Assembly: GCA_038093975.1 (NCBI GenBank)
Contig: JBBPTG010000170.1
Coordinates: 1 to 52,235, forward strand
Length of the DNA stretch: 52,235 nt
Direction of reading: 5' to 3'
Source: Chalciporus piperatus
Taxonomy: Eukaryota; Basidiomycota; Agaricomycetes; Boletales; Boletaceae
In this document: in pieces, positions 2,745 to 49,544 of the stretch
How the letters are laid out: every line of letters starts with the position of its first letter
How positions within the stretch are numbered: position 1 is the stretch's first letter
Position numbers and translations under genes: made by a program
The notes under the pieces: model-generated
Seen by the model: only the letters and a program-made list of their open reading frames with translations
The model's database searches: none
Told to the model about the DNA's origin: nothing

Positions 2745-2754
2745 TTGTAGAACA

Positions 2755-7736: not shown

Positions 7737-7761
7737 AACAACGACAAACAGAGGAAAGATG

Positions 7762-7770
7762 TATATAAGG
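7762..7770 (+). promoter_or_regulatory. TATA-like box before the E1 post-pol ORF
   Basis: TATATAAGG lies 26 bp after the pol stop and about 67 bp before the ATG at 7829. That spacing would allow a separate transcript for the downstream ORF. This is inference from position; it could be chance. Confidence 0.4.
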
Positions 7771-7828
7771 CCTGGATGCCCACCCACCACCCTTCACCAA
7801 ACCACTCTCATATACATTCCTCATTACA

Positions 7829-8299: not shown

Positions 8300-8319
8300 T
8301 CGCCTGGAAGTCGATCCAT

Positions 8320-12600: not shown

Positions 12601-15600
12601 GGGACATAGTGGCGCAGACATCTCCTGTATCAATTGGAGCTTTATACGAAAAAATCGAATCCCAACCACCCGACTCAAAACCCCTATTTGAGTCTGAAAC
12701 GTCGACCAGACCGCAAACAAAAGTGGAATGATACTCTTCACCACCACCCTCTTCCTCAACATCGAAGGAATCGCACAAGAAGTGATCTTCCACATCATGA
12801 ACTGCGGAAACGAAAACATCATCCTAGGTCTCCCATGGCTTGAAAAAGCTAACCCAACCATCGACGAGTCAAAGAAGTTATATACCATACATGCTGCGGC
12901 CTGTAAAGCCAACGACCAACTCTTCACTCGACCTACCCCTCCTCCTCGACACTCTTACGTAACCCCAGAAACCGACAAACAACTCTATGACTACCTGGAC
13001 TGTGAGACCGAATCCACCTTCCTTAACCGCGCCTACGAGAACCATACCCTCAACCACATTATTCGTTGTGGTTCACGCTTTGTCCCCAATCATGTTGTCG
13101 CTCGCCTTACCCAAGCTACAGAACTCGCCATCGCGGCCGAACTGGCCAAACCTAAACCTATCCTTCCAAAAGAATATGTCAAATACACCTCGGTCTTCGA
13201 CGAACCCTCAGCTGGTCACCTTCCTCTATCTCGGGTGTACGACCACAAGATCAACCTGAAGGAATCCTTCGTCCCTAAGATTGGAAAACTTTATCCGCTA
13301 TCTTCAGATAAAAAGAAAGCCACAGAAGACTTCCTCAAAGAGAACCTGCGTACGGGAAAGATACATCTTTCCAATTTCCCCCAAGCTTCCCCTTCTTCTT
13401 CATCAAAAAGAAGGACGGAAAACTCCGCCCCTGCCAAGACTATCGGTATCTCAATGAACATACTACCCGTGGTGCATACCCACTTCCTCTCATCGGAGAT
13501 CTCGTTGACAAACTGAAAGACGCCAAAGTCTTTACCAAGTTCGATGTACGATGGGGTTACAACAATGTCTGCATCAAAGACGGACACCAATGGAAGGCCA
13601 CTTTTCTCACCCACAAAGGCCTCTTCGAACCGACCGTGATGTTCTTCGGACTGAACAACTCCCCGGCCACCTTCCAACGCTTCATGAACGAACATGATAG
13701 CTGAAGGATGGCTCGTCATCTATATGGATGACCTTCTCATCTTCTCCCCCGATGATACTACTCACACCGCTCGCACGCAACAAGTCCTCGAACAGATGCA
13801 AGAGCTAGATCTCCATCTTCGTTTGGAAAAATGCAACTTTGCCGTAAACGAGGTAGAATATCTCGGCATGATCGTCTGCCCCGGAGAGCTTGCCATGGAT
13901 CCCGTCAAACTTGACGGCATCTCTCAATGGCCCATTCCCACTACAGTTAAGGAAGTTCGCTCATTCCTTGGCTTCGCCAACTTCTACCGATGTTTTATCC
14001 CAAACTACTCCTTAGTCGCCCGCCCTTTGATCGATCTGACCAAAAAGGATCGTCGATGGGATTGGAGCAATGCCTGCCAAGATGCCTTCGCTCGCCTGAA
14101 ACAGATATTCCTGGCGAAACCTGGCTTACGCTTCCCAGATCTCTCTAAACCTTTCGCCATCGCAACTGATGCCTCCAAATTTGCCTCTGGAGGTATACTC
14201 TTCCAACCCGACACCAACAGTGATTGGCACCCCTGTTCTTACCTCTCCCAGTCATTTGGTGACGCTGAACGGAACTATGATATCTATGATCGTGAACTCC
14301 TCGCTGTGATTCGCGCACTGAAAACCTGGCGACATTATCTCCATGGCTCTCCCTTCCCTGTCCAGGTGTTCACTGATCACAAAAACCTGACCTACTTCCG
14401 CCAACCCCAAAATCTGAACCGTTGACAAGCCCGCTGGCTCCTTGATCTTGCCAACTTTGACCTGAAAATGATTCATGTTCCTGGCTCGTCCCTCGCCGGT
14501 CCTGATGCCTTATCAAGGCGCACTGATCACTTTCCCACTAACGCCGATGACAATGCGGGTACCACTCTACTACCACCCTCTCTATTTGTCCGCGTCATTG
14601 ACGCCGCCATGAACAACCACATTTCCAGTCTTTCCAACAATGATCCATTTCTCCTCACCGCATTACAAGCCATTGACGGCGATATCCCTGCGCCATTCCG
14701 ATCCCGGTTGGCTGACTGGCAAATGACTAATGGTGTCCTGACCTACCAAGGTCGCGTTTACATCCCGCCAGACAGGAACTTATGTCGCACTGTCGTTCAA
14801 CGCTGCCATGATCACCCCACTGCCGGCCATCCGGGTTATCTCAAGACTAGACAGCTAGTTGCCGCCGAATTCTGGTGGCCTGGGCTTGCACAGTTCGTCC
14901 GCAAATATGTTGAAGGATGCGCAACCTGCCAACAGAATAAGGCAAACACACACCCGACTACTCCCCCTTTAATGCCCATACCGTCAAAGAGCTCTAAACC
15001 GTTCCAGCAAGTGTCTTGTGACCTGATCACCGACCTGCCCATTTCCAATGGCTTCGATTCGCTATTGGTTGTGGTCGGCCACGGGCTTACGAAGGGGGTA
15101 ATTCTCTGCCCTACCAAAAAAACTGTCACCGCCGAAGGGATTGCCTCTCTCTTTTTCCACAAAGTCTACCTGAGGTTCGGACTTTACAACAAAATCATCA
15201 GTGACCGAGGACCACAATTCACATCTGAGTTCGCTCGTGAACTAGGACGAATCCTTGGATACGACCTTTCCCTCTCCACCGCCTATCACCCCCAGTCTGA
15301 TGGGGAAACTGAACATGTCAACCAGGAAGTAGAAACCTATCTCCGAATCTACTGCGGAGATAACCCCATATCCTGGGCTGATTCTATCTCCCACGCTCAA
15401 TTTGCACACAATCATCGATCCCACTCTGTCACCAGCAAATCCCCGTTTTATCTCATGATGGGATATGAACCCTGTCCCCTTCCTTCGACGATTGCCAACT
15501 CCGCTCTACCCGCTGTCGAACTTCGCCTTCACTCCCTCACTGCTGCCAGAGACGAAGCACTCGCCTCGCACGAGCTTGCCAGACAAGTGATGTCCGCACG

Positions 15601-16087
15601 AACTCGACAGAAGTTCAAACCATTCGCCAAAGGAGACAAAGTCTGGCTAGAGGCAAGAAACCTCAAATGATCCCTTACCTCCCCAAATTTTGCCCCGAAA
15701 CGAGAAGGACCCTTTACCATTACACAGGTCCTATCTCTGCTATCTTATAAACTCCGCCTCCCACAAACGTGGAAGATCCACCCCGTGTTTTATGCTTCTC
15801 TGTTATCGCCCTATCGCAAAAACCCCATCCACAGACCGAACTTCCCGGCTCCACCACCTGACTTGATAGAAGGCAAAGAAGAGTATGAGATCGAAAAGAT
15901 TCTCCGACACCGAAGTTTCTCCGGATGCCACTCGTACCTGGTTCGCTGGAAGAGATATACTGCTGACAAAGACCGCTGGCTTAAAGCAGTAGACCTTACC
16001 CACGCCAAGAACGTTCTTGAAAACTATAAGAAAGCTCATCCATCTGCCTTCCCTTCTTCCTCAAGATCTCCATCTTCTGTCAAATGA
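12600..16087 (+). pseudogene. pol: 5'-truncated Ty3/gypsy pol of E3
   Basis: The recognisable frame begins inside the protease (NIILGLPWLEKANP) and lacks the catalytic DSG part, gag and the 5' LTR. It continues through RT (YMDD near 13720), RNase H (ATDASKFASGGIL), integrase with a zinc domain (GCATCQQNK) and DDE core (ISDRGPQF, SDGETEHVNQE), and a C-terminal chromodomain (SYLVRWKRYTADKDRW). Damage: a one-base loss near 13389 and a one-base gain near 13692 put about 300 bp out of frame; TGA at 14423-14425 replaces the conserved Arg of RRQARW; TGA at 15668-15670 falls after ARNLK. The integrase VVVDHG-type motif reads VVVGHG. Pol ends at 16087, 19 bp before the next ORF. Confidence 0.9.
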
Positions 16088-16105: not shown

Positions 16106-16518
16106 ATGTCCGCTCCCGCTACCCCCTCTGTTACTATAGACTCTACTACTATCTCTTCTGTCTCCTCTTTAACTTCATTCCCCTTATCTTCTCCCACTTA
16201 TCCACCTGGCCTACCTATCTCGTTGTTGCCCATGTCCCCTACTCGTCCTCCCACACCCAGTTACTCCATCGCTGCTGATGCCGGCTGGAGCAATGGCTGG
16301 GAAACCCCTAGGGAAGAAGTTGCTGTTCCAACTTCCCTCGCCAATACCTCTGCCCCTCCAGTTGTCTCCGTCGACCTTCCTCTTTCCGCTCATCGCCTCC
16401 GTGATGAACTCATGGACACCACAATCATGGATAGGATGTCTTGTTATCTCCTTGACTCGCGCCTAGCCGTCCCCATCAGCGCTCACTTGGACCTTGGGTC
16501 CCCACTCTTCGCACTTTA
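16106..16518 (+). pseudogene. E3 post-pol ORF, 5' part, interrupted by the 14.5-kb transposon
   Basis: The frame opens at ATG 16106, just after the E3 pol stop. It encodes a Ser/Thr/Pro-rich N-terminus and then a short conserved-looking segment (SAHRLRDELMDTTIMDRM). It is broken at 16518 by the DNA transposon and continues in frame at 31020. Removing the element and one TA leaves an open frame of 1146 nt (381 codons plus stop). Confidence 0.8.
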
Positions 16519-17800
16519 CATCAGCAAGACTGTAAAAAGTCTGAAATGACTGGAGCTTACTGGTCTGACTGGAGCCAGTCAGACCAGTAAGCCAGTAGCC
16601 AAGTGCCCCAGTCATCCAGTCAGATCAGGAAGCCAGTAGCCAAGTGCCCCAGTCATCCAGTCAGATCAGTAAGCCAGTAGTCCAGTGAGTCAGTGCTCCA
16701 GTAATCTCAGTAGTCTCAGTCATCCAGTTATTTAGTTACCAAGTAATCTCAGTAGTCTCAGTCATCCAGTCATTCAGTCACCAAGTTATTTCAGTGGTCT
16801 CAGTGGCCAAGTGCTCCAGTGTTCCAGTCATCCAGTCAACCCAGTGTGGCAGTGCTCCAGTCATCCAGTCATCCAGTCAACCCAGTGTGGCAGTGCTCCA
16901 GTCATCCAGTCATCCAGTCAACCCAGTGTGGCAGTGCTCCAGTAGCTCAGTCATTCAGTAGCCAAGTGTTCCAGCCATCCAGTAACTCAGTCATTCAGTA
17001 GCCAAGTGTTCCAGCCATCCAGTAACTCAGTCATCCAGTAGCCAAGTATTCTAGTCATTCAGATATTCCAGTAGCTTAGTGAGCCAGTGAGCCAGTGAGC
17101 CAGCCAGCCAGTCAGCAATCCTGACAGTACTCCAGTCACCTCAGTCATCCAGTCATCCAGTCATCCAGTTGTCCAGTCATCTAGCTGTCCAGTCATCCAG
17201 TTGTCCAGTCATCTAGCTGTCCAGTCATCTAGCTGTCCAGTGCTTCAGTCATCCAGTAACCCCAGTGGTCCAGTGGTCCAGCAGTCCAGTCATCCAGTCA
17301 GCCAGTCCCTTAGTCAGCCAGTCAGTCAGTACTTCCAGCAGTCCAGTCATCCAGTCATCCAGTAGGCCAGTCAACCAGTTATCCTGTAGCTCAGTAGTCC
17401 AGTAGTCCCAGTAGCCAAGTCATCCAGTCAGCCAGTGATCCAGTAGTCCAGTCCCTTAGTCAGCCAGTCAGTCAGTATTTCCAGTAGCCAAGTTAACCAG
17501 TCAATCAGTCAACCAGTAATCTAGTTGTCCAGTAGCCAAGTCAACCAGTCACCCAGACAATCAGTCAACCAGCAATCTAGTAGTCCAGTAGCCAAGTCAT
17601 CCAGTCAGCCAGTAATCCAGTAGTCCAGTCCCTTAGTCAGCCAGTCAGTCAGTATTTCCAGTAGCCAAGTTAACCAGTCAATCAGTCAACCAGTAATCTA
17701 GTTGTCCAGTAGCCAAGTCAACCAGCGATCCAGTCAAGCAGTAATCTAGTAGTCCAGTAGCCAGGTCATCCAGTAGCCAAGTCAACCAGTCAACCAGCAG
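16519..17800. repeat. Left terminal inverted repeat, CCAGTCA-type array
   Basis: After the terminal sequence comes a perfect hairpin at 16555-16592 (18-bp arms GCTTACTGGTCTGACTGG around AG). About 1.2 kb of short direct repeats follow, built from CCAGTCATCCAGTCA, CAGTAGCCAAGT, CCAGTAGTCCAGT and similar. The right end carries the same array inverted. Such arrays are good candidates for transposase-binding sites, as in the subterminal repeats of CACTA elements. Peptides read from it are repeat artefacts. The inner boundary is approximate. Confidence 0.9.
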
Positions 17801-17809
17801 CTCAATATT

Positions 17810-18640
17810 CCAATACATCAGTAACATAGTTACCCAGTCATTCAGCATGTCAGTGACTCAGTGACTCTGTCATTGAATTCCCAAGCCCTATTCAATCTAT
17901 TCAGAGCAGTAAAATGATTTCAGTGCTACAGGAGTCTAGGTGTTCAACACCCAAATCAACACGCCGCGCCCATGAAAATCAACATCAAGTTGAGGAACCC
18001 ATAGCCCAACAAACACGGATCCGTCAATCCCCTATTCGCTCCCGACTCCCTATTCCTCTCTCCCCACCACCTCAACATCACCATCGCCGAAACGGAAACA
18101 ATTTGTTGAAATCCGGTGACGAGAAAAAAGAAGAAGAAATCAGCTTTGGAAGCTGCTTGGAGGCCTCCATTTTGACGCGGCCTTATTTGCTGTGTTCTTT
18201 GGAGAGACGGGTACTGGTTGCTTGATGGACGGGAGGGAGGGGTGCGATGACGACTTGAGTGAAGCTTTCCCATCGAATGGCTTTCTCAGTGACGGAATCA
18301 ATGTCAGCGGTGAACGTGGGCGCGTCACTGTCGTTCGTCGTCGGCGTCGCAACACCATTCGAACGAGCAGGCGTCGTCGCTCTGCTGGTTGCACCAGACG
18401 ATGACCCACCCATAGCATGATTTTGACTGAGGCACGCGCGTTAGCCTCTAATGATACAAACCACTCAACGAAAAAAATACAGATCCCGCGGCGGGGGTAG
18501 ACGAGTTGATTGCTTGAGGTAGGCAATGCTGTTGGTGACGAGTATGCGGGACTTGGTGGCCAGAATACTTGAGGACCAATGAGTGGTCTGAAGAGGCTCC
18601 CATGTCAAACTTGTGGGAAGGGGAAGGCAGATAACCTACC
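17810..18640. other. Sub-terminal segment, possibly a further captured fragment
   Basis: Between the left inverted repeat and the SEC26-like fragment there is about 0.8 kb I cannot assign. On the minus strand some stretches look coding (TFTADIDSVTEKAIRWESFT near 18300; TNSIAYLKQSTRLPPRD near 18510), but no continuous frame is evident. It may be another host-gene piece. Confidence 0.3.
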
Positions 18641-18649
18641 AGAAACATG

Positions 18650-19650
18650 GCGAGCCACATGGCTTTTGATGCTCCCGAGCGTCCCCGTTAATTTTTCGGT
18701 GATCGTAGGTCGGAGAGACGGAAATTTCTCGACCACTTCTCGAACGAACGCGACGACGTCGAGTGCAGACGGGTTGTTGGAGTCGCCGAGGAAGTCCATC
18801 AGCGCATGTACGACGCTCGCTGCCACCTCTGAGAACTTGATCGCCATGACGTGGATGCTTTGAATCAGAAGTTGTCGGTACTCGGGTGCCTGGGGGGGGG
18901 GGGGGAAAGGTGAGCTATCGGATGGGCATTGCGAGGGGAGCAAAAACCTTGTCGTAATCTTGATCCTGAGTGCGCTGCAGCTGTTTCTTGAGGAACAAGA
19001 CGACCTCTTCTATATTCCGGGTCGACGTCATACTCAGCACGATGCTCATCGCTTTTCGGCGGACCTCCATGTCGGCACTATTCCAGATGTCAGTCGCGTG
19101 GAACGAGATAATATCTCATTCTGGACCTGCCTTGAGAGGACCTGCAGTACATCCATGATGAGTCCGTCCAGGACCGATCCGTGCCTTGAACGAAGGGCAT
19201 CCAGTCTGTCAAGGACGATGAGCTTGACATTGTTGTCCGATTCCTTGATCACGAGGTTGACGAGGCATGACGCTGCAGCTATTGACATCCATCCTTCAGT
19301 CGATGGATGAAGCTGCCGATGAGCCCGACAACGTACCTTTGACTGCAGCAGTATTCTGGGTCAGCGCAGTGAGCGTTGTTGCCGCTTCATACTTGACCGT
19401 GTGCGATGACGAGTTGAGAAGCTCGAACATGCAACGAACATATCGAGCTAGTCGTCATCGAAAAATGTTAGGAAAATGGTGTGACATGTTGCTCTCACTT
19501 GCCTTGTGGGTGGAGTCGTTTGTGCAATCCATTCTCGCGACCTCGATGACGGCCATCTGTAACCCTTCATCCATCGAGGTGACGCCATCCCATACGCTTC
19601 GTAGCCACTCGACCGCTTTATTCATAGCTACGTTGGCGAGGAATTGCCTG
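18650..19650 (-). pseudogene. SEC26: Captured fragment of coatomer subunit beta (SEC26/COPB1)
   Basis: In minus-strand order the segments [56 protein letters not shown], and later QLLIQSIHVMAIKFSEVAAS with ALMDFLGDSNNPSALD match the N-terminal HEAT-repeat half of the COPI beta subunit as I know it. The protein coats retrograde Golgi vesicles and is essential in yeast. Here only an internal part is present. It lacks both ends, keeps intron-like gaps, has a weak or mutated donor (GCAAGT) near 19530 and a long G run at about 18895. It abuts the RAX2 fragment directly and lies inside the transposon, so it is a captured copy rather than the resident gene. Confidence 0.85.
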
Positions 19651-22330
19651 GTTGAGGGTAGTGTCGAACAGGCAAATACCCCGACACCCAACGGTGCCTG
19701 CCTGTGCGAACGAACCCGTAACTATGGGCTCGTAAGGCGTTGCGGTGATGCAGCGGACGACCACGGATGAACCAGAGTTTGCCTGGATGGGTTGAGCTAG
19801 ACCTGTCAGCCACTGTTGCTTACTGAGGTCGTAGATAGCAAATCCATTGGAACCGGTTAGGTTAAATTCGCCATCGACGTATAGATGGGCTCCTGTGTCG
19901 ACGTAAAGGGCGCGAACCACTCCGTAGATTTGATCCCCCGGTGGTCTTGAAATCTTCAAAGGCTTTTTCCAGTATGTTGTGTTTGGTTTCTATCCCTGCT
20001 CGTAAATATCGATACATCTTGTTGCGTAGTGCGAGAGCAGTAGCGGTCGACGTGACTGGATCGTAGATGGCAACGGGCTGGGACTTGGCAGAGGACGATG
20101 CGGAAAACGAGATATTGCCACCAATGATGGCGACCTCATGGGAAGATGAGCTGTTTGACCAGAAGACACCAGCCAAAACTGCCGGAGCTGGAATTGAAGG
20201 CAGCGCGGGGAGTGTGGCCGAGCTCGTCGACGTCTGTCTCGTGAATAGCGTAGATAACCTCATATGAGGGATCCAAGCTGCAGGTCCACGTCTGTGGTTC
20301 CGCCTCTGCGCAGTCGATACCGGAGCGGAGGCATTGACGGTAGCGTCGAGCTGAACACCGAGAGGAGTGACTGTTGGGCCATTGGCGCCGCTATTCGAGA
20401 GCAAAACCATGCCCGTGGCGCCGTATTCTGCCATAGCATGGAGGTTCCCAGCAAGGAACTGCGATTCTCCCTGGCTACTGGAGGTTCCATTGCCGATGAA
20501 AGTGAGGTTACCCATGACGAATCCACCGCTGTTCACCCGCGACGCGCTGGCGCCCAAGTCGCGAAACCGCCAACGGTGGAACTGGTGCCAGCCAAGGTCG
20601 TTATCTCGGTGAAGTTCCCAGCAATTTGAATCCGAGAATTGGCGAGCGCAACACTCGCTACATTCCCGTTGATACCAGCTCCGAGAGAACTCCAAGTGTT
20701 TGTCCCAATATTGTACATCGCAACTCCCATCAACTTCTCTTGTGTCGAAGGAGTCTGGGTGTCAGAGAACGATCCTCCGATGTACAGTTCGTCACCGTAC
20801 AAAGCGAATGACGAGACTTTCCCGTTGAGACCCCTATTAGGCAGTGAGAAGATATTGGATGCGCCGCAAAGAGAGAATGTAGAGAAGTTGCCACCGAGGA
20901 CAATGTCGCCGGAAGGATGTTGAACGACAGTTGGAATGTAGGCGAAACTGGCGTCCGCGGCTCCCAGAGCATTGTAGAGATCGATACTGAGCATGTCCGC
21001 GGCGGTCTCGGTGGAATTTGGCATGACGCTGGTAGCATCGATAACAGCGTTCGAGTTCATTGGCCACTCGAAAAAGCCGAAGCCACGGTGAGTACCAAGG
21101 CCAGCAGATCCGGTTGTCCCATTTGGAGAAGTTACGTTGGCGGAAGTCAAGACAAGCTCTACATTTCCGGCAACAAGCTCATATTGTCCGTTTTGTCCTT
21201 CTCCTGTTGGTTGATCAACTAGCGACATTGTCACCGTAGTGACGAAAGACGACGACGAAGGGACGATTGGACCGGTGTATATCGGCACGGTGACGTCAGT
21301 TTGAACTTGCTGCGAGACAGTGGATACGTATGGCTGTGAGCCATCCCCGGGAAATACTGTGACCTCGACGGAGGTTCGAGAATCAGAATCCTGGAAGTCC
21401 TGACAACCGGGAATAACGAGGTTGACAACATATTGTCCTGACACAGAGACATACGGCATCCAGGTGAAGGTAGGAGCTTGAGACGCGGGTGTATCGACAG
21501 GGACTGTCGCCACAAGGACGGTCTGAAGAGTGGCGGGGATGTTTGTGTTTGCATTCTTGGAGGACCAGCTCCCGGTCATGGTGACATTGGAGGGATTGGG
21601 TGCAAAGCAGGACTGGGTATTTTGGCTGCTGACAGCCGAAGCAAAAGCGCCCGAGGACAGAGGTTGTAACATGTGAAGACCGGGAGCGGTTCCTTTCCAC
21701 TGGGAGAGAGTGATCTGTACACCACTGGTCAGAGAGACAGGAGTCGTGAATAGGAAGTCTCGGTAAAGGATTGAAGAGTCGGTTGACAGTGGACAACTGC
21801 TCGTACAGGTCACGTTTTGACCTGTAGATGGGTCGACGCATGTGAGAGTTTGTAGAGCCTGAGTGTTATGGGGGATCGACGTAACACTACAATGACCAGC
21901 GTCAGAACTTTGGCCAGAGGAAGCGAACATAAAACTTCACCTGAAAGCCGTCGTTCCATAGCCAGTCTGGAATGTGTTCCCTAGTCGGACGCCATTTGGC
22001 CCGCCAGATCCAAGGCAGAGAAAACACCCGACGATGGTGAATATGAGGCCATGTAACTCGCAAAAGTATTGCCGATAGAAATAAAGGAACCGTAGAGGTC
22101 GTTCATGGCGCATCCCGAAGTAATCGAACCGCCAGAATTAGTGGTGGCCAGAGTGGTGGGGGCTCCTTGGGGCGTGCGGGAAAGCAGTGACACCGAAGGG
22201 TCAAAAGTCGACGAGAGGAAGAGATGCGGACGTGAGGCAAGGAGATCGAGCAGACGACACCGAGCCGCATGTGCGCAGTCAGTAATTGCATCGCAGAGGC
22301 TCAAGTTGGGAAACTTACTCGAAGGACAAG
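19640..22330 (-). pseudogene. RAX2: Captured fragment of RAX2-like cell-polarity protein
   Basis: The longest open part (21930-20533) encodes beta-propeller-like repeats typical of fungal RAX2, such as YIPTVVQHPSGDIVLGGNFS, ALYGDELYIGGSFSD and WSSLGAGINGNVASVALANS. RAX2 is a membrane protein marking cell poles for growth or bud-site choice. A phase-consistent intron lies near 21895-21940. Frame breaks occur near 22000, 20560, 20380 and 19950. The tail (ALYVDTGAHLYVDGEFNLTG) runs to about 19650, where sequence switches without a gap to SEC26. The transmembrane C-terminus is absent. It has the same orientation as the transposase and could be co-transcribed from that side only if read through. 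Confidence 0.85.
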
Positions 22331-22468
22331 GCGCCGACCGTTTTACTTTGCGACGGCTGTTCACCAGTTGAAGCAGGCGGTGGAGGTTGTGTGTGTGCGT
22401 AGTGTAAGCTTCGAACGTCGACGACAGGCGTGTGACAATACATTGTACACAAGTATTAGGGGAGACTA

Positions 22469-22543
22469 CACATTTCTGTACGCTTATTTACAACACATTT
22501 CTGTACACTTCTTTACAGCACATTTCTGTACACTTATTTACAA
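22469..22543. repeat. Three tandem ~26-bp repeats
   Basis: Units of the type CACATTTCTGTACACTTATT plus TACAA occur three times in a row, about 100 bp downstream of the transposase stop (minus strand). The role is unknown. Confidence 0.8.
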
Positions 22544-22647
22544 CTTGGGAAATGCCGCCTGCGTCGGCAGAGACCTTGCTTGTGATCTGACTCGTGGGCT
22601 AGGAAGCCTATCATATCTGGGAACTTGGAAGGACAATGTTATTCAAA

Positions 22648-25600
22648 TTAGAAAGCTAACTGATATGCATGATAATCAGAAAACTTGTTGACATAATAGG
22701 CAGAAAAAGCAAAAAGAGAATCTGTATGATTAAAATTTCTGGGAATTTGAGTATCACCATAAACTGGAATCAAGTGAGCAGGGCGCAAAATACTGTCCAC
22801 AGAAATAACAGAAACCAAACGTTCTCCATTGGCATCAAATTCTGGCTCTACCATCCACATGCCAGTCTTGGGACATGGGTGATCACCAATAACATTGAAC
22901 CAGCGCACCAAAGCACAGGAGTGCTTAGTATTCCATCGTGTAAAAGAAAAAAACAGAAGAACTTGAGCAATATATAGGCCATGAATACCTGACAGATTAG
23001 AGTCTTTTTCAATGAAAACACAATCAAACCTTGCAGCATTGGAGTTTCTCCAAGATAGAGAAGCATAAATATGCTGCCGATGAAATCCTCTAATGCCACA
23101 ATGCTCACTAGGAGCATAAAATGTGGCAACAGCTGATGAATAGGAGTGTCCTCGTGTGATGATTAGAGGATACACATCAGGAACATCACCATCAGGATGT
23201 TCATCCTCATAGATGAACTGTGCCACAAGATTGGGCAGCTCTGGGCAGAAAACAGGATCACCCATTTCCTCAAAGGTTTGTAATTTCCTGGGATCTATTT
23301 GAACAAAATTAAAAATATATCAAATGATAAAGTAAACAGAGAAAAATAAACTTACTGGGTAATTTGGCTAGCTCAACCCATGCCTCTATCTCACTCTCCT
23401 CAACCCCTTCAGCTTCATCAACATTAATATCATCTCTATATCCTGCCTCTTCATAAAATTCAATGGCTTCCTGTTGATTATCTTGCTCTATCAAAGGTGT
23501 ATTGAATAATCCTTGTTATAATAAGCCACATGGTTTAATTGTTATTATTGATAGATATAAAACATACCTTCTGCAGTATGTGCATTTCTGTAAGATATCA
23601 AATTATCAAGCCGCTGATTGATAACCAAAATCTGATTTAAGGCTTGATTATGGTTTGAGCGCCTATAGGGTTTCTTGACAGCAGTTATATGCTTGGATTC
23701 AGTGATGGATGAGCAAAGTCCATTGGGGGCACCGAAAAGCTGAATATGCTCCTCATAGTGTTGGAGGGCATGAATGCGAGGAATTGATATTCCTGAAGGT
23801 CGAATTCCACAAGTCTGAAAAATTGATCGGTGGACTTCAAACCGTTGCAAAGCATTCTTTAGTGCTGTAAGATCTTGCTCAGTAAGAGAGTATTGGCGAA
23901 CAATATAACAAAACTCCATGAAAGCAGCTATGGCTTGTACCATCTGAGTTGGCACATAGTCAGCAATTGCTGGCAAATAGACCTAATGTGAGAAATTGAA
24001 TATTTCTTATTTAATACTATTTATTATAGTTTGCATCACTTACTTTCATTAGAGCTTTGGAGTCATTTCCAGTCCACTGTTTAAAACCACGACCTTGTGG
24101 AAATCGTCTTAATCCAGGAAAGGGTGGCACAACTGCAATTCTATATAAATACATATATCATTAGTGATATTGCAAATATATAGTGTGAAAGAAAATGGCA
24201 TACCGGCGATCAATGTCAGCCAAGATAGCATCAGGATGTTGATAATGCATTTTGATATAAGCTTCCACCCATGCAACAAGATGATCTTTGAAGGTTCCCT
24301 TGATAATTTGATGAAGAATATCAGGAGCAATTAGCTCATGGATATTTGCTCTTGGAAAACCTGCAGTGAAAGGCTATCATCATACTTCAATAAAGCTTAT
24401 CATACTATCAACACAACACTTACTAGAATACCATCCACAATACCATATTTTTTCCACAACTGAGTAGAGTCAAGATATTGCATCACTAGTCTTGTGTGAG
24501 TATGATTTCGAGGAGGAGATGTTGATTCATCCAGGTTGTTTCGATTAGCAAGACATCTGAAAGAAAAGTTAGAAGATATTTAAGTATACATAACAAATAC
24601 ACTTACTTTGGACACCATCCTTGAACAATGCATGTCAATAGTACTTGCTCAGGATAGTCAGCAATGTATGGTCCAATTCCATATATGACTCTTCTATAAT
24701 GACCATCAGCACATAGAGTAACTTCAGGTTTTGTCATGGCATTCTTCAAGGGTTCCAGAGCTGCCTGCAAAGAGGCATGGAATAACTGACGCCGAAAATT
24801 GCGAAATTCTTGATTATTTTGAAATTCTTGATCAGCTACATAATGTTGTCATATAGAGTCTGAGTATGCTGGTACAAAGACTTACTTTTAGGAATAGCCA
24901 GGAACCCCAATAAACTAACAGCTGATCCATGGCTCCGTCTAGCACTGTTGTGAACATTGCCAGTGGTAAGGTAAAGTGGCCAGTACTCAATATTGCCAGT
25001 GGCAACAGAGACTGTGGTCTTATCACTTCCAAGAATCACTGGAACAAACATAGCTCCATGGTTTTCCTTATCCTCTGAGAGGGTATTCTAAATAATTTGT
25101 AGCAGTTAATTTGAATAGCTGAATTGTTAAATTAAACTTACACACTGATCCCAAGCCCAATTTCCTGACATGAAGTCCGACCATATACGATCTCCATTCT
25201 CTCCAAACATCTGGCGTGGGCAATAGTCCAGATAGTCCTTGAACTCTGGACAAGCAAGCTGTTCTTGAACAAGAGACTTGGCATTGCGAACTATCAGCTG
25301 ATAGGTTTCCCGTTTCCAAGTAGGAAGACTTTCATCCTCCAGGTTTGCACCAGCATGGGAAAAGGAAAATGAAGACCAAGTTTTGGAGTCATTGATTTGG
25401 TCAATCTTTTGATAAAGATCATGAGCTGAAGCAAAAGGAGGTTGTTTCTTTTGATCGAGGGCAGCCATGATTTGCATGAGCTCATCGACCTGAGCTCCAG
25501 GCATCTCATTTCTGCGAAAGAGAAAATCTGCAAGCTCAAATTGAGCTCGATCAGAAAATGGACTCCAAGGATTTTGATTTTGGGAAAGGTTGGAAGTGGG

Positions 25601-25935
25601 TGGAGGAGTTCCCTCTGGTAGATCATTGCCATTGATGTCACAACATGCACCTATGTTAAAATTCAAGTGGTTAATAACTTGCAGTCTCAGTCTTCAAATA
25701 TTTAATTACCATTTAATACTGGGTGGGGTGTGTAATAGGAACCATGTGGTGGTACATCCTTGCCCTCCTGATGCTGATGAGGATGACTCCTCGATGCTCG
25801 AGTCATTAAGGGCTCATGGATAGTTCTCTTGTGCTCAGAAAACCTTGCATAGGACACAAAGCCTCTTTTGCAAGAGGGTGCAATAGGATTTGCACAAAAA
25901 TATTGTCGAGATTTGAATGTTGAACTTGATGCCAT
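22648..25935 (-). CDS. Plavaka-type transposase, 10 exons, apparently intact
   Basis: Exons read on the minus strand: 25935-25710, 25650-25142, 25087-24886, 24835-24607, 24556-24424, 24373-24204, 24140-24044, 23982-23568, 23511-23356 and 23294-22648. All introns are GT-AG, about 50-61 nt. The total is 2784 nt (927 residues plus stop), and every phase agrees. Residues about 14-42 form a Cys/His zinc-finger-like motif (CANPIAPSCKRGF..HKRTIH). Recognisable Plavaka segments follow: PVILGSDKTTVS near 260, CPKCLANRNN near 389, FPRANIHELIAPDILHQIIK near 440, LFGAPNGLCSSITESKH near 605, and a C-terminus with SILRPAHLIPVYG and YYVNKFSDYH. It should cut and join the element ends. It is the only transposase inside this element, 193 bp from the divergent gene. 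Family assignment is from memory of the motifs; the catalytic residues were not individually proven. Confidence 0.9.
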
Positions 25936-26128
25936 TCGAACAGTAGATATCTATGTAATTAATTGATGAGCTTAGTATAAATTGACATGAACTAATATTG
26001 GAGTACACAATTTGTTTGTCACGCACATTGTTTGGTTACGCGAACAGAACTTGGTATTTTCGTGTACGTCGTGAGTACAACAAGTTACTACTTCACACTT
26101 CACACAACACTATCGACTTGAAGTTCAG
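25936..26128. promoter_or_regulatory. Divergent promoter region between transposase and partner gene
   Basis: These 193 bp separate the two ATGs (25935 minus, 26129 plus). AGTATAAATTG at 25973-25983 gives a TATA-like box on the plus strand, and its complement TTTATACT is a weaker candidate for the other. The sequence is AT-rich near the transposase and pyrimidine-rich just before the plus-strand ATG. Shared regulation is inferred. Confidence 0.5.
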
Positions 26129-29100
26129 ATGGTCAATACACGCGCGAAGAACAAGATTACCCACCCAGGATTAGTTGATTTGGATTCACAGGGTAGCCAG
26201 CGCCAGAAACCACGGTCAAAACTATCGAAGAGCAACACGGCTGCTATGAGCGAAATTGAAGCATTCGAGACGAAATTACTTACGGAACAGCAAGAACGAA
26301 GTGCGAGGGCACGAGAACCACCTGGTCCTGGTATTGCCAAGCAGTCGCGCACGGGACTATCTAACCAACCAGTCACCTCCACTTCGAGCGAGCGAGTAAG
26401 TATGGAACATGATGGTACGTACGTCTACTTATCGGCCGGGGTAGAGTGGTGACTCTGTTGTTGTAGGCCGCCGGCACACACAAGCTGCGACAGACAGCGC
26501 AGGTAAGACGGAACCCTTGTAACTAAAACTCGACAATTCACTAATGAGTTGGAATGTATGAATCATGTGATAGAACGCACTGTTACTCGGGTTAATGGCA
26601 AGGCCGGAGATGATGTCCAGTACGAGGTCGATCGAGACGAGCCTATGTCGAACAGGGATGCTGCAGGCGAGGATGGTGAGGGAGTCGGGCCGCCAAGAAT
26701 ACGTGCGCAGAAGCGAGCGGCTGAAGGTGGACAGGAAGTGGGTGAAGAAACGAACCAGGGAGCTAGACGGGTGTCGAAGAAGTGGAAGGGCGACGGGAAG
26801 CGCCCGGTCAGTAAATCAATACAGCCTCCAGTGCTGATATGGCTAACAATCCACTTACCCGAAAGATTTATGATGTGGATCGGAGGCCTGAAGACAATGG
26901 AATGGACGACAAAGAGGAACGGAATGAAATGGGAACGAAAGAAATAGATATGAGTGAGTTGGGAGACGGAGAAAGCAGGAATAGAGAGGGGGCTGATTAT
27001 GGAAATTTGGCGGAGCGGTGAGTCAATTCGCCTTGACAGGACGCCCCACCTTGTCAAACGCTTCCACACCTGTCCGATGCACCGAATCTCACTCCCTGCG
27101 ATATCCCACAGACCCGTGAAAAATAAATTGACGACTTCGCCTGCCAATACTACCAGCAAGCCTCGGTCGTTCGGATTCCTGTCCAATTGGCAGGACGACA
27201 AGCTCCGCAATACCTCGAACGCTAGCGGGAGCGAAAGTCAAACAGGTAAATCGTCTCCACGGAGATTTCAACATTCGCTACTACTTAAGTCCTCCCCCCT
27301 CAGGTCAAGGTGCTGGTACTGCGAGAACTGAGCACGGTGAGTAGCTCCTAAAATTCAGTTTAATCGTTTAACTAATTTTTCGACTAGGTTACGTGTCTAC
27401 AATTTACGGTGGTCTCATTGACGACGATACCCAGGACCTTGCGCCTCCTCCGTCTCAACCCAGATGGCAATCAACGGTAGAGCTCACCAAATCCCCGCCG
27501 CACTTCCCTTCAAGTTCAAGTCACAACGACCACCTTTATGCATTCACATCTACACTAGAGGACCAGCGCGCGACACAGGATCAAGACACGACCGATGAAA
27601 CGAGCAGCAACCCAGGCGACGACTCGGACAGCCCGAGAGAAGACACGACTCATGAGAATGCTGGCAATTTAAAGGCCGTTCGAGCCAATGTGCGGTTTTT
27701 TCGAGTCGTGTTTAGTAGCAATACTAATTATTATGCTAGATGTCAATGCCTAGGGTAACTCTCCCTCCCACGCTGACGAAGAAGCAACGCCCGCGCGATA
27801 ACGACGTAACCAGCAAAGAAGCTACCAGTTCAGTCGGGGCCGCCGAGCCCAAGGTAAATTGTTGTTATACACTGTATTGTACTACTAATCACCCACTTGC
27901 TAGACGCTCGATATAGTGTCCCGCGCTGCCACGCCAACAAAGATGCCGAGGCCGCACAATGACGAAGAGGCAACCCGTCAGCAAACTGTGGGCGGTAACG
28001 GTAGCGGAGCTTCGCGTAATACCTCGACGACGGGCACAGGCAAAAGTGTAGCCACGCGTAAACCTAGCTCGTCCATGGGCACACCTGCCCGTCCCGACGT
28101 AAGTATCTCCTATGCGACGTATTTCATACCCACCACATACTTTCTAGACATCCGTATCACGCCCGTCTCCACTGTCGAAGAAGCTGCTCCCGCAAAATGA
28201 CAAGGAAGATGTCAACCGCAACGTACGTATTTGCTACGACTCGGAGCTACTATTTCCCATACTAACTCGTACATTTCAGACGCCTGTATCTCATCAATCT
28301 GGATCGACAAAGAAAGCAAATGATAACGAGGAAAGGGCCAATCCGGAACCTGCAAGCCTTAGTGAGGCTGCGCACAGTATGGCTCCCTCTGCTCCCCAGC
28401 CTGACTCGACAGTGGGTATGCCGAGCAACCCCATTGTAGGTACATGTCACCGGTGTGTTTATATACTAACTACATGTCGTCTAGATCCAACCCAATACAT
28501 TGACACGATCGTTGAAGCTTACGAAGATATGCAAGTCTGTTGTCCCACCGAGCCGTGTACGACAGGATGAGGCCAATGGGGTCATCGTGACGGAGACGAA
28601 TGGGGCTAATGGGCCCGAGGCCAATCGGACCGGCGCTGACGAGGCTGATGTGTCTGCTGCTGAACCCACCGAGAACGAAGACGCGACAGCCAGGCGCAAA
28701 CGAAAGAAGGCGAGGAAGTTCCACAACGAAGATTTACCCGGGTATCCAACGATACTGAAGAGCTGTCGTGACATCTTACTCCCTCGCTGGTACCTCTATA
28801 TCAGCCAGCTTGATGACCCGTGGGACCTCGTTCATCCACACCACCTGAAACTCGCGCAGCTACTTTGGAACAAGTTCATAAAGGTGGAACATAAGCTCGA
28901 GCTTAGGGATGAACCAGTGTTCTCACTCGTAAGTTCAGATATATATTCCATCAACAATACTGACTTTAATTTAAGCTCAAACAACGAGCTTGTGAATGGC
29001 GAGGGGAGATCGCCAAAAAGGCCCTTTCAGCTGTGGAACATTTCTTTTCCGACTATGAGGAGCTGACCACCCCCGAAGCTCGAGCAGAGTATGTTGACTG

Positions 29101-29720
29101 GGCTGTTCCCAGCACCCAAATTATTGTGTATCCGGACTCGAAGAAGAGAATTACTGTCCTGCCAGATGTATTCCCTTATATGTGGGCAACAGTTATAGAG
29201 TCCGACACTGGATCATTGGTATGTTCATCTTTTCACTCGAGGATTGTTTATCTATGTTCACATTTTTATAGACACCTAGTGGTGCATTTCGCCACCCTTG
29301 CATTATCGAAACATTTGCTCATTTCCTCGACACTATTGCTTTAATCCCTCCCGAAATTCAAGCTGGACGGAAACCTACATCAGCTCTCGCTCTTTGCACT
29401 GTTGCAGTAAGCTTTCGCTTCTAATTGTTGTAACTGGTTCATTTATTCTGTAGGTCGAGAGAGCATTCAAATATTGGGCGACTGGCACCCTTGTTCTGCC
29501 TTCGAGAAATTCTAGAAAGTTCTCCAAGCGTCACTGGGGGTTTGCGACTGGTGAGGTCATGAGAGCTTCTGTTCACCTTTCGGGCAAGCAGTGGCAGAAG
29601 ATACAAGATTTGGCTCAGGGCTATCTAGAGATGAGGGGACAGGAGACTGAGGAGATCTTATGTTTGAAGGGGGGGGTCAACACAGGGAGGGTAAATTGTG
29701 TTGAGGAGGATTCGGACTAA
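26129..29720 (+). CDS. 15-exon transposon-borne gene of unknown function
   Basis: Exons: 26129-26414, 26467-26502, 26574-26806, 26866-27017, 27112-27245, 27304-27336, 27388-27689, 27740-27853, 27904-28098, 28148-28222, 28280-28435, 28485-28928, 28976-29218, 29272-29406 and 29454-29720. All introns are GT-AG; the total is 2805 nt (934 residues plus stop) with consistent phases. Residues 1 to about 570 are low-complexity, charged and probably disordered (starting MVNTRAKNKITHPG). Residues about 620-900 look folded: SCRDILLPRWYLYISQLDDP, FRHPCIIETFAHFLDTIAL, VERAFKYWATGTLVLPS. The C-terminal pattern reminds me of the DUF6532 regions common in Agaricomycete proteins; this is recollection only. 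By position it could be the accessory DNA-binding partner of the transposase, like TNPA of CACTA elements, or a cargo gene. Confidence 0.8.
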
Positions 29721-29789
29721 CATAGTATCTGATGGGATGTAATGTTTCGAGTTCTCGGAAGAACTGCTCGTGGGGTATTCAATTATTGG

Positions 29790-31017
29790 TTTACTAAACT
29801 GCTGAAACTGGATGACTGGCCTACTGAATGACTGGCTGATTTGGCTACTGGACTACTGGGTGACTTGGCTACTGGACTACTAGATTGCTGGTTGACTGAT
29901 TGTCTGGGTGACTGGTTGACTTGGCTACTGGACTACTAGATTGCTGGTTGACTGATTGTCTGGGTGACTGGTTGACTTGGCTACTGGACAACTAGATTAC
30001 TGGTTGACTGATTGACTGGTTGACTGATTGACTGGTTGACTGATTGACTGGTTGACTTGGCTACTGGACAACTAGATTACTGGTTGACTGATTGACTGGT
30101 TAACTTGGCTACTGGAAATACTGACTGACTGGCTGACTAAGGGACTGGACTACTGGATCACTGGCTGACTGGATGACTTGGCTACTGGGACTACTGGACT
30201 ACTGAGCTACAGGATAACTGGTTGACTGGCCTACTGGATGACTGGATGACTGGACTGCTGGAAGTACTGACTGACTGGCTGACTAAGGGACTGGCTGACT
30301 GGATGACTGGACTGCTGGACCACTGGACCACTGGGGTTACTGGATGACTGAAGCACTGGACAGCTAGATGACTGGACAGCTAGATGACTGGACAACTGGA
30401 TGACTGGACAGCTAGATGACTGGACAACTGGATGACTGGACAGCTAGATGACTGGACAACTGGATGACTGGATGACTGGATGACTGAGGTGACTGGAGTA
30501 CTGTCAGGATTGCTGACTGGCTGGCTGGCTCACTGGCTCACTGGCTCACTAAGCTACTGGAATATCTGAATGACTAGAATACTTGGCTACTGGATGACTG
30601 AGTTACTGGATGGCTGGAACACTTGGCTACTGAATGACTGAGTTACTGGATGGCTGGAACACTTGGCTACTGAATGACTGAGCTACTGGAGCACTGCCAC
30701 ACTGGGTTGACTGGATGACTGGATGACTGGAGCACTGCCACACTGGGTTGACTGGATGACTGGATGACTGGAGCACTGCCACACTGGGTTGACTGGATGA
30801 CTGGAACACTGGAGCACTTGGCCACTGAGACCACTGAAATAACTTGGTGACTGAATGACTGGATGACTGAGACTACTGGAGCACTGACTCACTGGACTAC
30901 TGGCTTACTGATCTGACTGGATGACTGGGGCACTTGGCTACTGGCTTACTGGTCTGACTGGCTCCAGTCAGACCAGTAAGCTCCAGTCATTTCAGACTTT
31001 TTACAGTCTTGCTGATG
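29790..31017. repeat. Right terminal inverted repeat
   Basis: This is the inverted counterpart of 16519 to about 17800, with TGACTGG / ACTTGGCTACTGG repeats, the same hairpin at 30944-30981 and a terminus ending GCTGATG at 31017. Long blocks are identical to the left copy, suggesting recent homogenisation or recent transposition. Copy number of the internal units differs between the two sides. Confidence 0.9.
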
Positions 31018-31019
31018 TA

Positions 31020-31752
31020 CCGTGCTTACCACGGAGCCACCCGCCTTTCTGGCCTACTCCCCACGCTATCCCTTGTCCACAGAGCCTCCAAGGAGGTTGA
31101 ACTCCTTCGCAATATCCAAGCAGACCTCACCGCCAATCTCAGCATTGCGCTCTATGAGTTACAAATTCCTGAGTTCCTCGACGACCTCGACCGCTACCTA
31201 CGAGAGTCGGCTGTCGCTAGTCACTCCGCCCCACCGGTCATTGGTATTCCTACTTCGACTATTTCTACTCCATCCGCTTCTAGCTCCCCTCTTAATTCCG
31301 AAGAGGAAGCTGTCTTCTTTCGAGTCGAGCGGAACCACCATGAGGAACAACGACTACGCCACGGCACTACCGTCTTACCTTCCACACATCCCAGGTACAA
31401 TGATGCCTGCTTCATATGCCACCGCCTTGGGCATTTTCGTGTCAACTGCCCTGTATATCAATGTCCCACATGTCTTGTCTGGTCCCTGGGGCACAATCAG
31501 AGTCGTTGCCCACTTCGACGTACCCGCCAAGCATCTACCACCTCCTCTTTCTCTTCCAATTCCCGTCGACCAAGGAATTCCCATAGAGGTCTTAGACGAA
31601 CCACCCCCTTATACACCAGGATTTCGAACCCACGAGTTACCACCACCACCCACAGCGATGACGAGTCCGTTTGGGATGGTGACGACCCTCACGACGAGGT
31701 CGCGTATGCAAACATGACTGGGTCACCTGGGATGTACGGTAGAGATTTTTGA
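31020..31752 (+). pseudogene. E3 post-pol ORF, 3' part, with CCHC zinc knuckle
   Basis: This is the in-frame continuation of the ORF begun at 16106. It contains an amphipathic helical stretch (ELLRNIQADLTANLS), a CCHC knuckle CFICHRLGHFRVNC, a second Cys/His cluster (CPTCLVWSLGHNQSRC) and a basic Ser/Arg tail. That arrangement resembles a Gag nucleocapsid, but here it lies downstream of pol. It ends at TGA 31750-31752, just before the polypurine-like run GTACGGGGGTAAC. No other gag for E3 is visible because its 5' end is missing. Confidence 0.75.
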
Positions 31753-34124: not shown

Positions 34125-34385
34125 GACATCGATATTCCGTCCAACCCTCCAATTTGTCCTGGTTGTGAACTGGGCAAACAGCCAAACAGGACGTTTCCTC
34201 ATACTGAGACGCGCGCAAGCGCTCCTTTTGAGTTGATTCACTCTGTTCTCAAGTCGTTTGAGATAGAATCGTACCATAAGTTTAAATATGTGGTCGTATT
34301 CTACGATGACTTCACGTCAATGTCCTGGCTCGCCCTCATATGCACTAAGGACCAGACCCTTAAAATGGTCAAACAATTTACCTAA
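34125..34385 (+). pseudogene. pol: Ty1/copia fragment 2: start of integrase core
   Basis: CPGCELGKQPNRTFP is the second half of the zinc-binding region, followed by the core start. The motif that normally reads HSDLKSF reads HSVLKSF, so the first catalytic Asp is changed to Val. After MVKQFT the frame stops, and the remaining integrase core (second Asp and Glu) is absent, so there is an internal deletion near 34390. Confidence 0.8.
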
Positions 34386-34399
34386 GTGTTCCGGTGCAC

Positions 34400-35469
34400 G
34401 CCCTCACAGACCCGTAAGTCACCCACCCACTGAAGCACATCGACACACCGATGATGAAAGCGAGTCTTCAGACTCTGACTCCTCTGACGATCAGTCTGAT
34501 GCGGTTAATCCCACCCCTGATCCACAGCCAGCACGCCCGGAAACCCCACCTGCACCTGCACCTGCACCTCATGTCACACCGCCATCTGCTCGTCCACCAG
34601 CTGGACCACCCGATGCTCCACCTCGCCGATCTCAACGTGAACGCCGACCCCCTACTCGTCCTGGGAATGTCTATGGCGAAGATCATCATCCTTTACAACA
34701 GATTAAGGACATTGAGAAGAGATCTCGCTGGGAAAAGCTAATTGGACATGGCGAATCATCACGAGAACCGCAGCGTGAACAACCGATCCCAGATTCCATG
34801 CCCGACTCTGATCCTTCGGAAGACGAGATCGAACACATAACCAGGGAAGGGGGAGCGGCATTGATTAACTATCTTTGCTCTCGTGCTTATATTCCGGATG
34901 AAATGAGTAATCCCAACTATCGCGAATGGAAATTCCGTGATATACTCAAACTTCCTGCCGAGGAAGAAAAACTCTGGCGACAAGCCTGCGAAACAGAGCT
35001 TCAGATGCTCAAAGATCGCAAGGTTTACGAAATTGTAGATCGACCAGCTGATCGTAAGATCATTACAAATCGCTGGGTATTTGACGTCAAGTCTGACGGT
35101 CGTAAACGCGCTCGCCTAGTAGCCAACGGCTTCTCACAGGTTGAAGGCGTAGACTACGATCAGATCTTCTCCCCAGTCGTACGATACGAAACGGTGCGGT
35201 GTATGCTCGCCCTTTCCACACTAGAGAACTGGTACATCACCAGTCTCGACGTACGCTCTGCCTACCTATACGGCAAACTGGAAGAGGAACTCTATATGGA
35301 GTTTCCTGAGGGTTTTATGCCACCCGATAAAAAAGGCAAAGTCCTAAGATTACTACGTACTATATACGGCCTCAAACAAGCAGGATTATCCTGGTGGCGC
35401 ACATTAGACAGATCTATGGCTGAACTTGGCTTCACGAGGCTCAAGACTGACGCCGGCCTGTTCATATAC
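34400..35469 (+). pseudogene. pol: Ty1/copia fragment 3: linker and reverse transcriptase N-part
   Basis: A Pro/Ser-rich acidic linker precedes a typical copia RT: IITNRWVFDVKSDGRKRARL, ANGFSQVEGVDYDQIFSPVV, SLDVRSAYLYGKLEEELYME, IYGLKQAGLSWWR. The frame is open until E2 interrupts it after LFIY at 35469. It resumes in frame at 42027. Confidence 0.9.
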
Positions 35470-35922
35470 TGTTATGATCTCTCACAACACGGCGGGGACT
35501 TTGGGCAACACTAGGCCTATGCGAAGGATATGCTGAGTACTAAAACTTAATGACGGTGAAGTCACAAATGGATTAGACTGGGGTCTGTGATAAGTACAGG
35601 GCTACTTATATACTATTGAGAAGTGCGCACAGACCAACAGCCGAATAAGGAAAGCCCAAAGGGAAAGATAGATAAGGTAAATGGTACGATGATAAGAAAA
35701 GGTACCAGGCATGGATTAGGGTCTAGGCCATGACATCATTGCTGACTCATCTAAGTCTGGACCTTTGTCACGTGACCTGATTATGTAATAGTTTACGTAA
35801 TGCTACAGGGACTACCGGAGCGGATTAAGATAAATCCGGCTTGACCCCTAAGTTGTAGACAAAGTCCAGAGTTCGAATACTGTTGTAGGCAAAAGTTTGA
35901 AAAGTTTTTAAATACTATAACA
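35470..35922 (-). repeat. 3' LTR of E2 (element orientation)
   Basis: 453 bp, near-identical to 41569-42021. Three of the four differences I see fall at CpG/TpG positions. Confidence 0.95.
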
Positions 35923-35936
35923 CTATCCCCTCTCTA
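35923..35936 (-). other. Polypurine tract of E2
   Basis: On the minus strand TAGAGAGGGGATAG directly precedes the 3' LTR and overlaps the pol stop codon. Confidence 0.85.
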
Positions 35937-38900: not shown

Positions 38901-39518
38901 GACTACTTTGCACTGATCCGTACAGCGTGTGAATCGTACTCGTTTGGCCACCCAATCGATTTCAGGGTTGTGCCTCTCAAGCCAATCATAGCCGATGATC
39001 ATGTGATGAGTGCCAAGTACAGAAACAAAAGCGTCCATATGCTCGAAATGTCCATTATGTCCCAAAACAAGTGAAACCTTGTGAGTGACACTGCCTATCG
39101 CTCCCTCTGAGCCGTCGGCATTGTACACTGGAATAGGAAAAGGAAGTTCTTCCAGTGTCAAACCATGTCGCTCACAGAATGATTTATCTATAAAAATTTC
39201 GGTGGCGCCGGAGTCCAATAGAGCGGCAAACTCCATTTTCTTTCATTGCTCCCCTTTATTGTACATGATAGTAATAGCGAGATCCAGCTCGTTTTTTCGA
39301 TTCTGATTCCTTACATGTATTTTTGATGGGATTTCTTTTTTCGAATAATTTACCTTAAGGGAATTAAACACGAATTGTTTTACTTCTGTCGCCACGCCAC
39401 TAAGGGATGCCCTTTCAGAAGAAGAAGAAAAGTTATATTTGAACGGAACACAAGGAGTAGTACTAATACAACCATTTGGTAAACTATGTCCGAGCCGCCG
39501 AGAACCCATTTCTCTCAT
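35934..39518 (-). pseudogene. pol: Pol polyprotein of E2
   Basis: The ATG at 39518 overlaps the gag stop. TGA at 39243-39245 separates a 91-codon leader from a 1100-codon frame beginning at 39236. Domains in order: aspartic protease (ALLDSGATEIFID), RT with YIDD at 38262-38273, RNase H (VETDASDIATGAVLSVK), integrase zinc domain (HCQTCALMKGK), DDE core (ISIDFTTGFP, SDRGPQFASE, TDGQTERMN) and chromodomain (LEYLVHWKGWDISDRTWEKA). In the integrase C-terminus AQFHH runs straight into YFPRMGFE. Compared with E1, about 20 residues are missing in frame, so the long ORF is not necessarily functional. The stop codon lies in the polypurine tract. Confidence 0.93.
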
Positions 39519-49540: not shown

Positions 49541-49544
49541 AGCA

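Follow-up and report, generated by a model that had tools for sequence, protein, structure and literature searches.

A Plavaka transposon of Chalciporus piperatus with a divergent DUF6532 gene and broken fragments of host genes

The element and its two genes

The window analyzed here is the whole of a 52,235-nucleotide contig (JBBPTG010000170.1, here C170) of the bolete Chalciporus piperatus, taken from a draft assembly of 35.5 Mb in 484 contigs (GCA_038093975.1). Positions 16519..31017 are a single insertion of a single DNA transposon, 14,499 bp long, since its ends match, a TA duplication flanks it, and empty sites with one TA exist elsewhere in the genome. Both ends begin with CATCAGCAAGACTG, and CATCAGCAAGACTGTAAAAAGTCTGAAATGACTGG is read inward from 16519 and from 31017 alike, with TA outside each (16517..16518 on the left, 31018..31019 on the right). 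The DNA around the insertion is itself repetitive: it matches at least 40 other places in the genome, and its frames look retrotransposon-like by eye. At two paralogous sites this flanking repeat runs on uninterrupted, with one TA at the junction: on C304 the left and right flanks match at 96.4% and 98.6%, and on C216 at 88.0% and 87.3%. A third candidate, on C305, has an unmatched left flank and is therefore uninformative. These results bear out an earlier sequence-only reading of the window, which had called the ends and the TA duplication and predicted the empty-site junction; its view of an apparently complete element with two multi-exon genes also stands. Allowing up to three mismatches in 25 bases, the terminus pattern has 264 matches in the genome and a reversed control pattern has none, which excludes a chance match (genome-wide counts, here and below, are tool summaries covering the candidates scored and the rows listed). 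Further copies were compared as twelve short ones with paired ends (L033-L044, 0.86-4.3 kb). All twelve end at the same terminal sequence, as that reading expected; since similarity to the left 482 bp was what selected them, however, copies ending elsewhere would have escaped. In six of the twelve, a duplication of 2-3 bp is clear (TT, TT, AA, AG, CTA, and TA). TA-specific targeting is thus rejected.

Each end of the element carries a long arm built from degenerate 8-bp units resembling CCAGTCAT, the left at 16519..17870 on the forward strand and the right, inverted, at 29787..31017; both inner boundaries are approximate. Aligned over 1309 columns, 1256 nt of the left arm and 1211 nt of the right are 85% identical, which confirms the 1.2-kb inverted repeats first noticed in the bare sequence. 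The left arm has 118 copies of the unit's CAGT core and the right arm 111, against about five in base shuffles; the complement, ACTG, is present four times in each. Core spacing is exactly 8 bp in 58 of 117 gaps on the left and 61 of 110 on the right, and mostly 16 or 9 bp in the remainder. Close to the tips lie near-perfect palindromes of 38 nt (16555..16592, with a counterpart at 30944-30981), 95% identical to each other and present in several other copies too. Folding of 16519-16600 as DNA gives -23.4 kcal/mol (z -7.2), and the palindromes could form hairpins.

The first of the two genes encodes a Plavaka transposase of 919 aa on the reverse strand (22648..25935). It has ten exons, its introns are all GT-AG with consistent phases, and its reading is undisrupted. 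The ten exons and the agreement of their phases had been proposed before; the coding sequence is 2760 nt in the new model, not 2784, and intron 5 was placed so as to retain a conserved PFT motif. PF18759 (Plavaka) matches over its full length (profile positions 1-325 of 325) at 426 bits against a cut-off of 26.3 (E 1.3e-127), so that the family first guessed is now secured. Among 7994 candidates scored, at least 2518 are homologues; the closest among the matches listed is from Boletus edulis (78%), and Butyriboletus and other Boletales also appear among the best-matching proteins there. Residue conservation was read from 38 aligned homologues, taken from the best 120 of the 2518. In this alignment the residues of GSDKTTVS, CADGHYRR, IADYPEQ, WCxxC, LLHQxIKGTFKDH, and SSITESKHI range from invariant through nearly invariant to consensus; all these motifs recur in the window protein, with ILHQ replacing LLHQ. 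The C(2)C pair (C384 and C387 of protein P0003) is invariant and conservation extends to candidate D and E residues, but an H(3-4)H motif could not be located with certainty in the aligned proteins. An N-terminal motif common to the homologues is presumably a C2H2-like finger.

The second gene runs the other way (26129..29720, forward strand). Its start codon is separated from that of the transposase by 193 bp (25936..26128), a presumed shared promoter; the pair in a sister element on contig C361 is also arranged head to head. The gene has 15 exons, 2805 nt of undisrupted coding sequence, and agreeing phases, just as the sequence-only reading had it, and encodes 934 aa. Its splice models were made by eye. 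The protein matches PF20149 (DUF6532) near its C-terminus (residues 708-871) at 33.5 bits against a cut-off of 24, and no other Pfam domain was detected in it; an exon-by-exon search of the genome with the same profile did not list this gene. Relatives support the start and many of the exons. The C361 gene begins MVNTRAKNK..HPGLVD as in the window and has its last three introns in the same places, and residues 1-457 and 645-771 of the window protein can be aligned to P0001 of B. edulis, at 33% and 66%, respectively. The closest protein among the matches listed is likewise from B. edulis, at 66% over part of the length. By eye, exons 8-11 (27740-28435) resemble repeats of one phase-0 exon, each with a motif like [ST]P..[ST]KK..P..[ND]D.E, which suggests exon duplication.

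The PlavakaB lineage of Agaricomycotina is defined by 5'-CATCA..TGATG-3' termini and a target-site duplication of 2 or 3 bp (PMC12730594). Both ends of the window element carry these termini, and its TA duplication, seen against two empty sites, is of the right length, as are the clear duplications of its relatives. Because of these termini and this duplication, and with its Plavaka transposase, the element fits the published lineage, contrary to the initial impression that it matched no known description. The extra gene described for PlavakaB is of the TET/JBP type and occurs in two species; the accessible part of the paper mentions neither DUF6532 nor mosaics of host DNA (PMC12730594).

DUF6532 genes beside Plavaka genes

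Searching the genome with the Pfam models gave 83 matches to DUF6532 and 135 to Plavaka, which merge into 49 and 91 loci, respectively. Of the 49 DUF6532 loci, 23 have a Plavaka locus no more than 12 kb away, a distance that covers at most 6.4% of the genome by the loci found. Nineteen of these 23 pairs are divergent, two are on the same strand, and two are convergent, one of the latter (on C445) having a divergent Plavaka gene slightly further away. With four loci from protein searches added (C170, C361, C256, and C21), 26 of 53 are near a Plavaka locus and 22 of them divergent. The C361 element has the same divergent pair as the window, and C21 a weaker, more distant one. On C361 and C256, the DUF6532 genes are accompanied by right ends that carry a close variant of the window's terminus. 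The arrangement may also reach beyond this genome: in B. edulis BED1 the closest transposase among the matches listed (P0002) and a relative of the window's DUF6532 protein (P0126, 65% identical over 45%) each lie on a contig of length 128101, which suggests one and the same contig.

Binomial tests on the 49 loci give 4e-15 for nearness and 1e-8 for divergence. The first figure assumes random placement and takes in just the Plavaka loci found, and repeat-rich contigs would raise the expectation; the orientation result is independent of this assumption. Other observations tell against a regular pairing as well. No Plavaka locus was found within 12 kb of 26 of the 49 DUF6532 loci, and in the 53-locus set just 25 of the 91 Plavaka loci have a DUF6532 neighbor, so that the two genes are not always paired in this draft assembly. 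Both counts are incomplete: 123 of 211 Plavaka candidates were scored, and the Pfam search did not pick up the DUF6532 genes on C361, on C256, and in the window itself. Neither of the B. edulis relatives, P0126 and P0001, itself matches the DUF6532 model of Pfam. Even so, since 23 of 49 loci are near Plavaka in at most 6.4% of the genome and 19 of the 23 are divergent, it is more probable that DUF6532 serves many Plavaka elements of this genome as a second core gene than that it is peculiar to the window element, which is how the long second gene had first been seen.

Captured host DNA and the surrounding contig

Between the 3' end of the transposase gene and the left arm lie fragments of three host genes, all on the reverse strand. 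Nearest the arm is a piece of an ABC-transporter gene (17945..18661; 89% over 708 aligned bases to a donor-like locus on C142). It is followed by a piece of a coatomer-beta gene (18662..19644; 90% over 979 bases, C182) and a piece of a RAX2 gene (19648..22237; 93% over 2490 bases, C12). The pieces abut, their joints being blunt or having three extra bases (0-3 nt between pieces). Host cargo had been suspected from the start, as two gene fragments; there are in fact three, and all are broken. In the C142 donor the ABC_tran and ABC_membrane matches are below the Pfam cut-off, and the transporter identity is taken from these and from motifs read by eye. Adaptin_N is above the cut-off both in the window frame and in the C182 donor, whose gene we take from its motifs to be coatomer beta. 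Three introns, read by eye in that donor, are retained in the captured piece, and indels in the pieces aligned to donors are of at most 3 nt. The pieces were thus copied from intron-bearing DNA, and RNA-mediated capture is rejected. Indels break the reading frame of the RAX2 piece, which has also lost 477 nt and gained an insertion of 91 nt. Frame-breaking indels also dispose of the idea that the three pieces are working genes; they are now broken and probably passive. The 91-nt insertion (19941-20031) has close short relatives on C10, C277, and C300 and may be a small mobile element. Other broken coatomer-beta fragments lie on C182 (28500-33500) and C117 (52500-60500). In these stretches of 5.0 and 8.0 kb there is no match to the element's arms or genes, which implies that another process also scatters this gene. 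An apparent left breakpoint shared by these fragments and the captured piece was discarded: the coatomer part of the query starts there, and the C182 fragments continue past it.

The sister element on C361 has a different host mosaic next to its transposase 3' end. Its segments match C24 (90%), C267 (98%), and C182:4847 (100%), and include pieces of a helicase gene (C262/C242, 94/97%; Sec63 and DEAD domains), presumably of BRR2 type, and of a P-type ATPase gene (C296/C71, 89/86%). The helicase, ATPase, RAX2, coatomer, and ABC pieces, five of the five judged, are all in the sense of the transposase; with three C361 segments unjudged, these are too few to claim an orientation preference in capture. 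Host scraps also lie between the ends of the short copies, eight of the twelve having pieces of RPL4 (C67) and/or a plasma-membrane-type H+-ATPase (C32), both identified through nucleotide matches to those loci. L037 strings together seven such pieces, none more than 19 nt from the next, and the four remaining copies (L035, L039, L042, and L043) gave no match. Among ten cargo frames from the short copies compared with Pfam, one is above the cut-off (Cation_ATPase_N) and one below it (ribosomal L4). Because the C361 mosaic is different and host scraps occur in eight of the twelve short copies, the family captures host DNA repeatedly.

Elsewhere the contig is an island of repeats, and several frames resembling those of Gypsy and Copia elements, some of them interrupted by stops, lie at 1950-8300, 12698-16087, 34267-39242, and 47638-49542. 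Of five frames scanned for retroelement domains, three have them (36000-39242, 34267-35511, and 47638-49131) and two do not (12698-13513 and 31016-31714). Tandem arrays of units of about 76 bp, at 42996-43289 and 46478-47033, share GGCCTGTACCAGT-like motifs in both orientations and could be the arms of another element. At the contig end lies a second, partial Plavaka transposase gene on the reverse strand (50097-52199; 308.7 bits to Pfam at 51543-52199).

A two-gene model of transposition and its alternatives

The reading that best accounts for the locus, to which we give a probability of about three in four, is that of an autonomous or recently autonomous cut-and-paste PlavakaB transposon, related to CACTA elements, with DUF6532 as its second factor and a history of repeated host-DNA capture. 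In this model a DDE-type transposase would cut at the CATCA..TGATG ends. The DUF6532 protein would be the element's own second factor, most likely binding the 8-bp arrays, bringing the ends together, and regulating them, by analogy with En/Spm, whose TnpA recognizes subterminal repeats and is required along with TnpD (PMC2613891). Both proteins would also serve, in trans, the numerous short copies that share these ends. The part of the En/Spm literature consulted describes the same two-protein logic, the same use of subterminal repeat arrays, and short copies moved in trans. En/Spm obtains its proteins by alternative splicing, however, whereas the window element has separate divergent genes, units of 8 bp, and more than 110 cores per arm, and Pfam and PDB searches detected no resemblance between its putative partner and any solved or named DNA-binding protein (PMC2613891 for En/Spm). 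As for the cargo, host DNA would enter the stretch that separates the left arm from the 3' end of the transposase gene. The gap left by an excised element can be repaired from shifting templates. Capture probably took this route, with DNA templates that wander, which would explain why the pieces retain introns, come from several loci, and abut.

A number of observations weigh against this account. The transcription of the element and its movement are predictions from its sequence. Six of the twelve other paired copies have no visible duplication, and none of the twelve shares the element's interior, so that they are not simple deletion derivatives of it. The C361 mosaic is placed inside the sister element by deduction, its left end not having been reached. 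A PDB search with the DUF6532 protein returned nothing significant (best E 0.37), and the AlphaFold model of a homologue is unusable (pLDDT 44), leaving DNA binding without structural support. An estimated dN/dS of 0.21 for both genes, in the comparison with C361, speaks for DUF6532 as a core gene, but it covers 909 of the 919 transposase codons and 516 of the 934 DUF6532 codons; both values are rough since dS exceeds 1, and the second is biased low by its restriction to the alignable 55% of codons.

The DUF6532 gene may of course have no part in transposition, as a captured host gene or further cargo. The element plainly acquires host genes, the family has no known function, and many of its loci in this genome stand apart from Plavaka. 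Yet the gene is undisrupted, unlike the cargo; its start and C-terminal introns are retained in C361; its estimated dN/dS over the alignable codons is as low as that of the transposase; and DUF6532 genes lie divergently beside other, distant Plavaka genes. A mere passenger is therefore improbable. More serious, and still clearly less probable than the main reading, is that DUF6532 is a partner gene acting on silencing or chromatin. A slot for such helpers exists, as PlavakaB elements of two Agaricales species carry the TET/JBP gene, for which an anti-silencing role has been proposed on transposons of fungi (PMC12730594, as far as that text was accessible). The long, repetitive N-terminal part of the DUF6532 protein, judged by eye, is also unlike a classical DNA-binding domain. 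On the other side, Pfam gave no domain apart from DUF6532 and PDB no significant match, and the unusually long 8-bp arrays suggest that some protein binds them.

The origin of the mosaic is another matter. A nested capturing element, a segmental duplication, or an assembly error could have placed it, without capture by the family itself. The coatomer-beta fragments on C182 and C117, which have neither arms nor genes of the element in the stretches compared, speak for this, as do the relatives of the 91-nt RAX2 insertion on three other contigs. But different host genes lie beside the C361 transposase and between the arms of eight of the twelve short copies, the window segments abut, and an assembly error would presumably have to recur in many contigs. 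We consider such an origin very unlikely. Returning to the two-gene transposon, a wider version of it is tentative and less likely than not: that DUF6532 is the TnpA-like, end-binding partner in mushroom Plavaka elements generally, and that capture in PlavakaB happens at one set place, downstream of the transposase gene, where autonomous copies keep building sense-oriented chimeras of host genes.

Plant Pack-TYPE elements (Pack-MULE, Pack-CACTA, and the soybean Tgm-Express) likewise hold several host-gene fragments between terminal repeats (PMC8903248, PMC1947982; both seen in part). The window element has such fragments from three donor-like loci of its own genome. Pack-TYPE elements are described as non-autonomous (PMC8903248), whereas here the cargo coexists with an intact transposase and a partner gene; the short copies with host scraps fit that class better. 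In fungi, transduplication by other DNA transposons is already in print: in Pyrenophora tritici-repentis, hAT and Tc1/Mariner elements contain host-like sequence, and the hAT family comes in long and short forms, as here (PMC3538342). In the parts of that study consulted, these are other superfamilies with whole open reading frames in nearly identical copies, in contrast to the chimeric, decayed fragments in the window (PMC3538342). Within the part of the open literature covered, with subscription papers and Repbase outside this scope, we found no DUF6532 described as a Plavaka gene and no gene capture by Plavaka. A published list of protein domains, seen in part, names DUF6532 next to Plavaka without linking them, and specialists may already know of the pairing or the capture.

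The element is less singular than the sequence-only reading held, and more interesting too, because its second gene has the look of standard equipment. Should the pairing hold elsewhere, a fungal family named only as unknown would gain a role, and Plavaka would become a two-gene system that can be tested as En/Spm was. A mushroom transposon related to CACTA is also seen here to capture host genes, with donor-like loci, joints, and two different mosaics available in one genome, which opens the mechanisms of capture to direct study.

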